From Saccoglossus kowalevskii (taxonomy: Eukaryota > Hemichordata > Enteropneusta > Harrimaniidae), in assembly GCF_000003605.2 (NCBI RefSeq), contig NW_003147278.1, positions 137,876 through 160,954 of the forward strand: a DNA stretch of 23,079 nucleotides. Direction: 5' to 3'. Below, in pieces: positions 866 to 20,411 of the stretch. Within the stretch, counting starts at the first letter, position 1. The number at the start of each line of letters is the position of its first letter. The translations under genes and the position numbers were made by a program. Under the pieces are notes generated by a model, which had not been told where the DNA came from, did no database searches, and worked only from the letters and a program-made list of their open reading frames with translations.

Positions 866-871
866 TTTATT
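866..871 (-). promoter_or_regulatory. Polyadenylation signal AATAAA
   Basis: The minus strand reads GAAATAAAATG here, with the hexamer 67 bases downstream of the TAG of the secreted peptide gene. A T-rich stretch follows. The position fits a short 3' UTR of roughly 85-95 bases. Confidence 0.55.
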
Positions 872-938
872 TCATCATATATACGTGTATGTTAGACGTA
901 TACATTGCGACTGTTTATAATCACACAGTTGAAAAATA

Positions 939-1821
939 CTATGTCTTGCGTCCGCGAATACGATGAGCAGTTTCTCTAGCATGAAGTTGGGCTCTTTCTG
1001 TATTTTTCATTCTGTAAATGTAAATTAAAAGAATTTTTAATCTATTCAAAAACGTACAGTTGGGGTATGTGTCTTTGAATTGCAATATTATTATAATCAA
1101 TGACAATTTACTAATTTTAATAAATGAAACTAATTTAGTAGGACTTACTAGTAATTGCGTAAAGTAGAAATCTCGAATTAATGAAAATAGCTGTAATTAC
1201 TTGAATTAATCGAAATTTATAAACACAGCAATAATTCGCATGATGCAAGAAAACAAACAAAATGTGAGACACTGTCAAACACATTTTTTATCAATCAGAT
1301 AAAAACATCAAATACTGTACAGTCAATCAGTCAAATCCAATATGGTAATTATTCAGACGCAAACGTGTGTAACTTTGCAGCGTTTATACTGTTTTTGTGC
1401 ATTGAAGCATGGGATGTGGATCGACTAAACACATAATTCGCAGAGTGGCCACAAAATACCGATTTGTTGTTGAATTTTGGGATTGCGTTCCTTGAAAATA
1501 AGGTGTAAACCCGGAAGATACGTTGTATTTCTAATTGCAATCAGCATTTGAACAAATGTGTTTTAAATAACCATAAAACAACCAAAGACATAATTAAAGA
1601 TAAACGTGAAAACGTGTTTTTCAAAAACGTCTCTCTTCACATGACAAATACGAACTAATCGTCTGTACTTACCCGCTTCTGACTGCATCTTGTTCATTTC
1701 TCCGACCCACCACACGAGATCCCAAAGTCATCGTACGACCCCAGTTAATAGCTGTAGCTGTGTCGATCCACAAAGCTACAACCAGTATTACCATCACACA
1801 CACCCCTGTTACGTTTTTCAT
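939..1821 (-). CDS. Small secreted, probably amidated peptide precursor (two coding exons)
   Basis: Seen: the minus strand reads as join(1821..1673, 1011..939) and gives 73 codons plus TAG. The start ATG at 1821-1819 has A at -3. Residues 1-24 form a signal peptide: MKN, a hydrophobic core (VCVMVILVVALW), then a small-residue end (DTATA). The next residues are INWGRTMTLGSRVVGRR, where GRR is the usual amidation plus dibasic cleavage signal. Exon 1 ends in phase 2 at a strong donor (CGG|GTAAGTA, GT at 1672-1671). The second exon follows TTTTAATTTACATTTACAG (AG at 1013-1012), restores the frame as GGA, and encodes a tail ending AHRIRGRKT before the stop. AATAAA follows at 871-866. An acceptor-like site (TTTCTCTTTTACAAACAG) lies 22 bases before the ATG, suggesting a 5' UTR intron. 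Known: this layout is typical of neuropeptide and peptide-hormone precursors. Inferred: a secreted signalling peptide. The mature part is clearly cationic, so a defence peptide is an alternative. No family is assigned. Confidence 0.6.
1349..1490 (-). other. Possible alternative terminal exon of the secreted peptide gene
   Basis: Seen: an acceptor (TTTACACCTTATTTTCAAG, AG at 1492-1491) precedes an open frame. It accepts the phase of the upstream exon (GG from 1674-1673 plus G at 1490 gives GGG) and runs 46 further codons to TAA at 1351-1349. Joined to the signal-peptide exon it would give a 96-residue product with a different C-terminus. The segment has one cysteine and no dibasic site, so it looks less like a peptide precursor than the 1011-939 exon. 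Phase agreement alone has a one-in-three chance of arising by accident, so a chance open frame is quite possible. Confidence 0.25.
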
Positions 1822-1851
1822 CTTGACAAAGTGTTATTTTTCGCTGTTTGT

Positions 1852-6085
<4,234 letters not shown>

Positions 6086-6951: not shown

Positions 6952-8792
6952 ATAACGTAACAGGAATATCTTTGAACACAAAGTCAAGTGTCAACTTAGG
7001 TATCCGCATTGCCGTCAAGGCAGTTCACATGTGAAGACTGATATTATCATACAGATTACCGCTCCAAAATGTTTATACAATTGTAGTACCAAATGAAATG
7101 TGTTTAGACATGGATACATACTATAATTTAACATACCATGTACGCATTGTAAAAGTAATTTATTTCAAATTTCCAAATCAATCCTGCTACATTTTAGTAG
7201 CAATACTTAGCATACCTTATCTCATTGCCAATACTGTTATTAAAATCTAGTCACACAACCCAGACATAAATACATACATACACAATAGTTTATTGTATTT
7301 TTGAACAATTAATCTCCTAATTGCAATAGAATTGACTAGTGAGTCCCATAAAGCATGTATCTGAGGATACTCTAACTATTATACAATATCCACCAAATCC
7401 ATCGGAATATTTCAAGTTGGAAGGTACGGGAGAAAAAGAAAAGGTTGTAAGTATGTCCAGGTTGTGTTATTAGATAAAAGAACTAATTTTGAGTTATAAT
7501 ACAAATCCAGATATACTACACAGTTCCTAGTATTTTGAAATTAAAATACCTAATCGATAGATATTGGCAAACTTGTACCGACAAGCAACCCAATCTTCCT
7601 TTACATACGTTTGTCTTTCAAAATGCACCCAACAAGATATATATAAACGAGCCATGCATACAGTTTGTTATAGTAACATAGTACAATATTGAGAGATAAT
7701 GTAATGGTAGTCACCAGTCTACTTGAAATGCATAAAATGCATCTCACACATAATCGAAACAGTTTTTTTGTGTTTATGCCCGGGATAAGAAAACTGCCAA
7801 ACTAACTAGTTAAAGGGCTGTTACCTATAATCCAATTAAAAAGTATGATGATTAGAAGACATTCAAGTTACACCTGTTCTATTTTTATAGAAGAACCTTC
7901 CCAAATAAAACAAATTCTAAAGTTTAAAAATTTAAGAGGTAGTCACTAAACCATGTACTTTCACACTCAAGCAAGAGAATAGACATGTTGGTGAACTAGC
8001 CTTGCACTGTGAGTGTTTTATTGTTTACACTCCAGTTTTTTTCACAAATAAAAAAATTAAAAAAAAAAGAACTGCAGACCACACTTCTTTATATTTTTAG
8101 TGGGCAAGCCGGTTTCCACATACAAAAATACACATAATATTTCTATTTAATTTATTTTATTTAAAAAAAAAAATATTTTAGAAGCATAACAATACAACGA
8201 CTAGATTTGGTGTCACAGTTTGCTCCCAATTCATACTGGAATATTGCCAGCAATAATTAATAAAGCTTGTTCAGAAAACATCATCATTGCCGACATCATA
8301 TTCAATGGCTAGTTCTCAGGATCTACAACAGTAAATAAATAAACAGAAATCATTTTGATGCGTGTTTTTTAGACGACACTGCCATATCGCACAGATATTC
8401 AACACCACCATATCGAATTTGGATTTGGACCATACCATTTCAAGCTGCAGGGTGTCTAAACAATGACTCAACAAACAATAAACACATCTTCCACCCACCA
8501 CACAAATTTTAGCCACAATTGAAAACCAAGAAAGCAACAAATATCAGGCTGCATCTTGAAAACAACGACATACCGCATTACAACCAGTCATTACAAACAT
8601 GAAATCCTCCACCCCTAGCAGTACACCCTACAACATTAATGGTTCCTATACTCATTTGCATCTATGTACAACAAGCTTAGCCAATAGATGCACCTGACTC
8701 ATCAAACTTTTGACCAACCACTCATTCTAAATATTGTGGAGTGAAGGCGCTATTTACTAATGAGAGGAATCTTTTAAACGAATTAAACAGAT
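6952..8792. other. AT-rich DNA without recognised features
   Basis: No gene, RNA or clear mobile element was recognised. There are A/T runs around 8037-8070 and 8156-8180. The 74-codon minus-strand open frame at 8316-8540 has no domain, no supporting splice sites and no recognisable composition signal, so it was not called. Confidence 0.45.
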
Positions 8793-8928
8793 CAAGCAGT
8801 GAGTATCTAGTTATGCTATAATTAGAGAAGGTATACAATTCACTCACCTGTAAACATACTATGGCATGACTTATAACTTGTTCCTATAGATTTGGTAGCC
8901 AAGGCGCAGTGAATACATCTACGATATA
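8793..8928. repeat. 136-bp direct repeat, copy 1
   Basis: Nearly identical (about 3-4 mismatches) to 9001-9136, from CAAGCAGTGAGTATCTAGTT to GCAGTGAATACATCTACGAT. The two copies start 208 bp apart in the same orientation. On the minus strand the repeat contains TTTACAG|GTGAGTG, a near-perfect splice donor. In copy 1 a short frame leading into it is open, but no acceptor or homology supports an exon. Confidence 0.93.
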
Positions 8929-15002: not shown

Positions 15003-15396
15003 ATAAAAAAACGTATCAACAATTGCTTAGAGAGTTTTCGGTTAGGCTGGAATAACCATCCACTCAGTACTCAACACAATTATAGCCCCAACCAGATGTG
15101 GATCAGAGGTGTGACAGCTAAACAAAATGCTAACAAGACTGCAATAAAGGAACTTTTAGATCCTGATATAATTGACAACAGTACATATGGTGTTGAGAAT
15201 CGTGTGCTGCAAACTAGCAACATTTCCCCCAACAGATGATACAACCGATGATGAACTTGACTCTAATGCAAGTGACCATCATCTTCTAATTCTTGGCCAA
15301 TCAGTTGACCCACTTTCAGAAAGTTGTAATGAGAGCGTTGACCTGTATATTAGAGCTTGTAAATTATTGTTCAACTTGCAGCAGTTTGTTTCATAA
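15003..15396 (+). pseudogene. Frameshifted 3' remnant of an integrase-core (rve/DDE) protein
   Basis: Seen: the frame open from 15003 encodes NNCLESFRLG, then WNNHPLSTQHNYSPNQMW at 15048-15101, IRGVTAKQNANKTAIKE and a YGVEN motif. It stops at TGA 15237-15239. The +1 frame takes over between about 15190 and 15225 with LATFPPTDDTTDDEL, then SVDPLSESCNESVDLYIRA, ending at TAA 15394-15396. Known: animal proteins with an integrase catalytic core often carry a WNxHxLxTxxxxSPxQxW stretch after the DDE core, followed by a YGV block and a VxPLxxSxxxGVDLY-type C-terminal block. This matches from memory, with no search run. The catalytic core itself is missing upstream, where the sequence is A-rich. AATAAA follows at 15398-15403. 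TTGCTTAG at 15023-15030 could be an acceptor, so a broken last exon is an alternative. Confidence 0.65.
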
Positions 15397-15684: not shown

Positions 15685-17098
15685 AAAACATTTATCACCT
15701 CAATTATTATACCACTGCTGATCTGTTTTTACATCACCTTACCAATCAATAACTAATTATTATTATTGCACAAATGATCCACGGAGCGATGTCACAGAAC
15801 GTTTTACACTGCTAAGACGCGCACCCCTGTACCATGTATTTCTATGGGCTCTGTGCAAGCTGCTAAAGATAAGGTGAAAAAAATAGCACAAATGCACTAA
15901 TACTCATGAGCAACCAAATTTATATATGTTCTACATGTAGGGGTAATCTTGTAACCATGTTTAAGGCTCAACAACTATCCCAAAATACAATTTTCTGGAT
16001 GTTTTTGTTTCCACCATGATGGTTGCCAGACGATGAAAATGCCCGGATGAACAACCTTGTATTGTCTAATATTATGCAGATTACTTCATCAATAAGTATA
16101 TTTCAACTCTAGAATAAATTTGTCTGTAAAAAATCTCAGAATAAGTTACAAACTTAAGTTACAAAGTCACCCAATGAAATCATAGAAGTACATTAATTGA
16201 AAATGGTGGTTGGCCGACACTCCCTTATTCAATAGAACACATGATTAGTCAGTAGAAATAACATTAGCTGCAAACATTCAGATAAGGTAATACATTTGTT
16301 ACGTGAATGAAAATTATAATTTTGACCAATGCCCTTATAATGGTCAATATACCATATATTTGAAAGATATGCACTCAATTTTATTATCCATGCTACACCT
16401 ATGAGTATAGTACTCATGTGCAAACTTTCACCTGGCAATATATTAAGGTAGAAGCCTAGTCATAATGTTTGACAAAATTGGTTATAAATCCTATGACAAT
16501 TTTCATTAGTTTATTGTGTACAATCATGAAGCTAATGTCTCATGGTACGAATAGAACACAATGTTAAAGAAAAATGCATTTTTTGACAGTTTTTAAAACC
16601 CAGATTTTTGAAATATTTATGATTATCATTAACAATATATGATTTTTCACCAGGCTAAATTTTGAGATATTGCATTATATCTCTGCCATAGGAAACTGTG
16701 GTAAAAGTATTATAATATTGTCAAAATGGCGACTTTCAACTAAAGTACAACTATCAATTTCTCAAAAAAAGGCTGGTGACCCCCAACTTGTTTAAAGTCA
16801 ATATTCTTATATTGCCTTGTAGTACAATTTATTGCAAAATGAATAAATTCTGTTTTTTTTTTAATTTATGAGTAGGCTCAACATGGACATAAACAAAACC
16901 AAAATGGCCACCAGTATGTCATTTCTGTTTGATGCTTAAAAAAATGAGGTGTGCATCCAATATACATGGCCATGATATAAAGTTAGAATAAAATTGTCCT
17001 ATTATTCTCCTACAAAATGCCATCCAATTTGATAAATTCACAAACTAACACAACCTACGGTATCACCTAAGAGTGTAGTACTGAACCTTCGTTGTTAT
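15685..17098. other. AT-rich DNA without a supportable gene
   Basis: Contains a roughly 50-codon plus-strand frame ending at about 15880 and a 69-codon minus-strand frame at 16229-16438, neither with homology or splice support. CAAAATGGC-type motifs at 16722-16730 and 16900-16912 belong to a series continuing to 17878. Confidence 0.4.
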
Positions 17099-20026: not shown

Positions 20027-20411
20027 CAAACCACAACAGGAACAAAAACACAAAGGGAGCAATGCAAACCACAGCAGGAACAAGGCAAACTACAACAGGA
20101 ACAAGACAAATCACATCACATCAGGAACAATAAAACACAAAAAGAAAAGGCAAAACACAACAAACCACAACAGGAACAAGGCAAATTACAACAGGAACTA
20201 GCAAACCACAACAAGCACACAACAGGAACAAAGTAAACCACGACAGAAACAAGGCAAATCACGACAGGAAAAAGGCAAACCACTGGTAGGAACAAGGAAA
20301 ACCACTGACAGGAACACGGCAAACCACTTACAGGAACAAAGCAAACCACTGACAGGAACATGGCAAACCACTTGTAGGAACACGGCAAACAATTCGCAGG
20401 AACGCCACAAA
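20027..20411. repeat. Minisatellite, unit 21-22 bp, about 16 copies
   Basis: Units follow CAAACCACAACAGGAACAAG plus G. From about 20275 onward the unit lengthens to 22 bp by one base (CAAACCACTGACAGGAACAC plus GG). A few units carry insertions. Protein-like readings on either strand (VVCFVPVSGLPCSC repeats on the minus strand, Asn/Lys/His repeats on the plus strand) are by-products of the repeat. Confidence 0.92.

Follow-up and report, generated by a model that had tools for sequence, protein, structure and literature searches.

Background

Small secreted peptides are processed from precursors that may be encoded in exons below the usual open-reading-frame length cut-offs, and the question raised by the locus described here is whether such a precursor is encoded on the minus strand of a 23,079-nt stretch of the Saccoglossus kowalevskii genome (contig NW_003147278.1, positions 137,876-160,954; the whole stretch is called the window below) and, if so, which peptide would be released from it. 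A reading made from the letters alone, referred to as the sequence-only reading, had proposed a signal peptide, a Gly-Arg-Arg (GRR) site, a donor, a phase-matched acceptor, a stop codon and an AATAAA motif that together form a two-exon gene for a 73-residue product. All these signals lie at the proposed positions on the minus strand, and joining of the two exons does give 73 residues. We conclude that the locus is predicted to encode, in spliced form, a small peptide that is secreted and processed, a reading well supported by sequence statistics, segmentation of the guanine-cytosine (GC) content, codon-position bias and splice-site calibration. It is probably a single-copy neuropeptide (peptide-hormone) precursor, ordinary in kind, which would release one amide of 13-14 residues.

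Results

Gene model and predicted product

Joining of nucleotides 1821-1673 (exon A) with 1011-939 (exon B), from the ATG at 1821-1819 to the TAG stop codon at 941-939, gives the preproprotein MKNVTGVCVMVILVVALWIDTATA-INWGRTMTLGSRVV-GRR-NEQDAVRSGMKNTERAQLHARETAHRIRGRKT-stop (Table 1). An in-frame stop is found 5 codons 5' of the ATG. The product carries an N-terminal signal peptide, GRR follows 14 residues past the predicted cleavage, and a linker then leads into exon B and the C-terminus RGRKT. The candidate architecture resembles that of a small neuropeptide precursor, in which the active peptide would stand right after the signal peptide and be closed by Gly-Arg-Arg. A search of the 572-Mb genome with the product returned its own two exons alone (2 of 2 candidates scored) and so revealed no further copy, although stretches of N could hide one.

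Table 1 Features of the candidate precursor gene in window coordinates (UTR, untranslated region)
Feature	Position	Strand	Basis or remark
Putative 5'-UTR intron, 301 nt	1844..2144	-	donor AAG/GTATGT at 2145/2144, acceptor ACAAACAG/C at 1844/1843
5' UTR portion of first coding exon	1822..1843	-	sequence; in-frame stop at 1836
Coding exon A, 149 nt: signal peptide, mature peptide, GRR, linker	1673..1821	-	
Signal peptide, residues 1-24	1750..1821	-	von Heijne matrix score 7.83
Predicted mature peptide INWGRTMTLGSRVV, residues 25-38, predicted amidated	1708..1749	-	between predicted cleavage and GRR
Gly-Arg-Arg amidation and convertase site, residues 39-41	1699..1707	-	sequence
Coding intron, 661 nt, phase 2, GTAAGT...TTTACAG	1012..1672	-	splice-site scores
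Coding exon B, 73 nt, ending ...HRIRGRKT-stop	939..1011	-	sequence; GC segment
AATAAA polyadenylation signal	866..871	-	start 68 nt past the stop codon

The route from precursor to peptide would follow the established steps of prohormone biology. The precursor would enter the endoplasmic reticulum and be cut after residue 24, a prohormone convertase would cleave after Arg-Arg, a carboxypeptidase would remove the arginines and peptidylglycine alpha-amidating monooxygenase would act on Gly39 to give INWGRTMTLGSRVV-amide (predicted monoisotopic mass 1587.867 Da). Trimming of the Ile would give the 13-mer NWGRTMTLGSRVV-amide (des-Ile form, 1474.783 Da). The released amide may act on a G-protein-coupled receptor, and the cut at GRR would also leave a separate C-terminal peptide. 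When the coding intron is retained the frame ends directly after residue 50 (GGG TAA), so that spliced and unspliced forms would yield the same amidated peptide.

Signal peptide and splice sites

Signal peptides were scored with a simple von Heijne matrix (not SignalP), and the splice matrices were likewise simple. The cleavage of the candidate is predicted at ATA/INW between residues 24 and 25, and its peak 10-residue hydropathy is 3.55. Eight ATG-led rows of the window meet loose signal-peptide limits, two of them being nested starts of the candidate open reading frame (ORF) itself; this ORF scores best and is the only one among these rows with G[KR][KR] downstream.

The donor of the coding intron, AGCGG/GTAAGT at 1673/1672, which the sequence-only reading had called strong, scores 7.43 and ranks third among the 2646 GT sites of the window. 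The phase-matched acceptor at 1012/1011 has a score of 3.97, equalled or beaten by 38 of 2098 AG sites, and is the higher-scoring of the two downstream acceptors of the window that reach 2.5 or more. A longer gene by way of other acceptors was rejected, the sole alternative above that limit yielding an 8-residue tail. Just 5' of the ATG, the acceptor of the putative 5'-UTR intron (1844/1843) scores 3.44, a value reached or exceeded by 49 of the 2098 AG sites, and the donor assigned to it (4.57) is the top of 5 donors above 3.5 in 6 kb upstream. This intron is the weakest part of the gene model, and its donor and acceptor could be paired as given in Table 1.

The splice matrices were calibrated on three genes nearby, one CDK11-like and two P450-like, with exon borders chosen by eye, the CDK11 identity taken from a match and the P450 identity assigned by eye. 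Four acceptors of these genes scored 1.84-4.61 and three donors 2.73-5.99, as against 3.97 and 3.44 for the candidate acceptors and 7.43 for the coding-intron donor.

Composition and coding bias

The GC content is 47.7% in exon A, 42.5% in exon B, 30.4% in the coding intron and 27.4% in the 3' UTR. The value of exon A is reached or exceeded by 43 of 22,276 stretches of the same length, which fall in three clusters including exon A itself; that of exon B is reached or exceeded by 2766 of 22,428. Among the 10 maximal-scoring GC segments listed for positions 500-2500, computed without splice signals, the first (1660-1813) overlaps exon A and the third (943-994) overlaps exon B. Codon position 1 of exon A is 78% purine. 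Among 2264 open frames of that length in the window, which overlap one another, 0.8% have at least this bias, and none has it jointly with the GC content of exon A. GC segmentation and codon-position bias, which make no use of the splice and peptide signals, fit both exons, exon B less strongly. A further GC-rich segment, at 1911-2020, lies inside the putative 5'-UTR intron and may represent a repeat or a promoter element.

Chance expectation

Sequence was simulated as a single strand from order-2 and order-3 Markov models built from the window (205 + 198 = 403 Mb). It contained a signal peptide of the candidate's strength with G[KR][KR] only once and 10 cases of a loose signal peptide with an amidation site and an in-frame donor; the full signal combination occurred 0 times in the 403 Mb at strict or loose thresholds. 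As a control on real sequence, the scan was repeated on 113,328 readable bases of this contig; apart from the candidate, no ORF there had a signal peptide of equal strength, and none combined a loose one with an amidation site. Loose signal peptides by themselves are common, 4.6-5.3 being expected per window in the simulation and 7.7 being found per window length in real flanking sequence. The sequence-only reading had described each signal as weak alone and the combination as unlikely by chance; the signals do agree far better than chance would give.

Searches for relatives

The Pfam search of the exon-B segment returned a sub-threshold zinc-finger fragment (E 0.092), and phmmer of the product against the PDB gave one chance-level match (E 1.1). 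A scan of viral contigs for relatives gave 6 pattern matches, 0 of them confirmed, and 0 Rfam families reached the gathering score in the window. The predicted peptide string did not occur in the literature searched. The description of the gene as uncatalogued thus holds as far as Pfam, the PDB, the viral contigs and this literature were searched. The Pfam Spexin family (PF15171) gave 0 matches in the genome of this animal, yet 0 of 14 control genomes matched either. A tandem APGWamide query gave 5 genome matches (best E 0.005) and no recognisable precursor; of three such loci that were read, one had TGWGNNSF repeats and two lacked such a motif. This is weak evidence against a mollusc origin, which was rejected.

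Galanin-type receptors

A fragment of human galanin receptor 1, used as the query (150 of 396 candidates scored), gave at least 92 genome matches with E values no higher than 1e-6, a number in keeping with the rhodopsin-type receptor class. Two of the three best receptor matches were compared with the PDB, allatostatin-A-type receptors being left out. The single-exon gene at L035:322-1446 (contig C453, plus strand) reached 224-232 bits with galanin receptors 1 and 2 and 163 with somatostatin receptor 5, of the next-best family. For the single-exon gene at L034:299-1408 (contig C173, minus strand) the values were 216 bits with galanin receptor 2, 200 with somatostatin receptor 2 and 198 with galanin receptor 1. 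By these scores galanin receptors 1 and 2 are clearly the solved structures nearest to the predicted L035 protein; the placement of the L034 protein is less clear. The genome is thus predicted to encode at least one galanin-type receptor, judged against solved structures alone. GALR-like receptors have been reported in cephalopods and annelids (PMC8514136).

Comparison with known peptides

The mature peptide was compared with 56 peptides, and 15 rows of the ranking were listed. The observed score was the better of two query forms and the shuffles used one form, which slightly favours matches. Fish spexin-2 headed the 56 (shuffle p 0.008), followed by chicken SPX2 (p 0.019); multiplied by 56 comparisons, 0.008 becomes about 0.45, and the spexin-2 similarity is not significant after correction. 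Two SPX1 peptides gave p 0.10 and 0.15, and kisspeptin-10 gave an uncorrected p of 0.047. Galanin begins with GWTLNSAGYLLGP; this N-terminus is absent from the peptide, and galanin is not among the 15 listed rows of the 56. In GnRH/corazonin-type genes a 5'-UTR intron shortly before the ATG is followed by one exon with the signal peptide, the peptide, the amidation site and the start of the associated peptide. The candidate shows the same order of parts, but its peptide lacks the pyroglutamate-forming Gln and the family motif. The peptide does not fit kisspeptin, as it ends in SRVV and not in NxFGLR[FY]-amide; the published C-terminal consensus is NXFGLRYamide.

With spexin-2 the peptide shares the Asn-Trp-Gly start, Met, Leu and Arg that can be aligned with gaps, and the C-terminal Gly-Arg-Arg. 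According to published accounts, mature spexin is a 14-residue peptide of the form NW[TG]PQ[AS][MI]LYLKGxx-amide. The precursor of chicken SPX2 is 75 residues long, of which 24 form the signal peptide, and carries a single amidated peptide of 14 residues that ends at GRR. Membership of the spexins is not claimed: NWGRTMTLGSRVV is without the PQ and LYLKG of that consensus. Chicken SPX2 also differs from the candidate in its four exons and in the spacer that it has between signal and mature peptide.

Neighbouring loci and mitochondrial contig

Thirty ORFs of the window were scanned and one family scored above the cut-off, an integrase-type transposon protein fragment at 15003-15236 on the plus strand (Pfam rva_4, E 1.5e-9). 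The window also contains an ATAA microsatellite of about 60 copies (5847-6085) and tandem arrays of 21-22 nt (20027-20390). No family was found in 7 neighbour ORFs scanned. The CDK11-like kinase exon used in the calibration lies at L002:172-510 (plus strand), with a likely further exon, recognised by eye, at 2723-2995 of the same strand. Farther along the same locus there is a LINE-like stretch, L002:8536-9715 (minus strand, by eye), where a match to the zinc-binding reverse-transcriptase family zf-RVT on 8536-8925 falls just below the cut-off (E 7.1e-6). The P450-like genes, identified as such by eye, form a tandem pair, L024:1018-4887 and L025:1505-3542 (both plus strand), and in each of them a later exon appears to be large.

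The mitochondrial contig (C4830, 17,037 nt) reads by eye ND4L-ND4-ND5-CYTB-ND6(minus)-rRNAs (by position)-ND2-ND1-COI(minus)-COII-ATP6-COIII-ND3. This order is deuterostome-like, except that COI is on the opposite strand, ND2 precedes ND1 and CYTB precedes ND6; repeats of about 190 nt are seen by eye near 16243-17037. Read by eye, AGA stands at a Ser position in CYTB and at one in ND1, ATA at Ile, AAA at Lys and TGA at Trp positions, and AGG was not seen inside the eight genes read. Set against the mitochondrial codes, this usage rules out an echinoderm, in which AAA would be Asn, and is most like that of a hemichordate, which is the probable source.

Discussion

That the signals fell into line by chance in non-coding DNA, or that they are left over from a decayed gene, is an unlikely explanation of the locus. 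It draws on the facts that each signal is common by itself, that the sequence-only reading picked the best-looking case and that nothing similar was found in Pfam, the PDB or the viral contigs. It has to contend, however, with the absence of the full combination from 403 Mb of simulated sequence, with 113 kb of real flanking sequence lacking a signal peptide joined to an amidation site, and with GC segmentation and codon-position bias that fit the exons without use of the signals. Several observations do weigh against a neuropeptide precursor. Just 2 of the 10 GC segments between 500 and 2500 overlap exons, and the second-strongest of them (1911-2020), which stands above that of exon B, coincides with no proposed exon. 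The case for exon B is less strong than that for exon A: 1.3% of 9593 open frames match it in purine bias and GC content together. The thresholds of the simulation were fixed on the observed values post hoc, so that significance is somewhat overstated, and Markov sequence is without the patchiness of real genomes. Pfam gave no family for the 73-residue product (E up to 10) or its pieces, and the mature peptide has no recognised family signature. Finally, the GRK that the sequence-only reading placed at the end of the second exon is present, but its use as an amidation site is uncertain because Thr stands between it and the stop codon. Still less probable, in our judgement, is a reading in which the full cationic chain, and not a short amide, is active, whether as an antimicrobial peptide or in some other secreted role. 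The part after the signal peptide, foreseen as about 50 cationic residues, does comprise 49 residues with a net charge of about +8 (12 K/R, 4 D/E), but it is more likely cut at GRR into the 13-14-residue amide and a C-terminal peptide. GRR stands exactly 14 residues past the predicted cleavage, there are no cysteines in the chain, and the maximum helical hydrophobic moment is unremarkable (18.6% of 1000 shuffles reach it); an antimicrobial helix was rejected, this moment not being above shuffles.

If the gene does encode a neuropeptide precursor, as we consider probable, its family has to be considered. That the peptide is orthologous or closely related to the spexin/galanin peptides of vertebrates and signals through the animal's own galanin-type receptors is doubtful, though slightly less so than chance. 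NWG...M...L..R..GRR is common to the candidate and spexin-2 (NWGPQSMLYLKGRY-GRR) in a gapped alignment, the lengths of precursor, signal and amidated peptide are 73/24/14 residues here and 75/24/14 in chicken SPX2, and at least one galanin-type receptor is predicted in the genome. In sea urchin such receptors were present with peptide ligands yet to be identified, according to a 2017 echinoderm review (PMC5860471). Against this relationship stand the corrected p of about 0.45 from a scoring that slightly favours the match, the weak SPX1 values, the absent LYLKG core and a peptide one residue shorter counted from Asn-Trp. Moreover, no propeptide separates signal and mature peptide as in SPX2, hmmscan found no match of the product to Pfam Spexin, and the receptors were named from solved structures only, with allatostatin-A-type receptors outside the comparison. 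The candidate is not filed as a spexin because the corrected similarity is not significant and the spexin core is missing. In layout and in the single coding intron the gene also resembles single-copy pleurin/ETH-type precursors. Pleurin is reported from trochozoans (scallop pleurin is IFYTNKEGNDFPRIamide) and ETH from ecdysozoans. A trochozoan pleurin/ETH-type PRXamide precursor is nevertheless very improbable: the C-terminus would be SRVV-amide and not PRX-amide, and the mitochondrial contig, judged by its genetic code, does not look trochozoan. Pleurin was rejected for want of the PRXamide end.

Small spliced neuropeptide genes readily escape ORF-length cut-offs. If real, the neuropeptide precursor described here contributes a new amidated candidate that did not turn up in the literature searched, together with its predicted masses. 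That this peptide may be a ligand of a galanin-type receptor in this animal is a speculative hypothesis, and it is rather doubtful that the gene encodes the missing galanin-type-receptor ligand of a non-chordate deuterostome in the form of a divergent spexin-like amide. The candidate peptide and the predicted galanin-type receptor of the same genome would nonetheless offer a direct test of the ligand question raised in the echinoderm review (PMC5860471). If true, a divergent spexin-like identity would place the spexin/galanin peptide lineage before the chordates.
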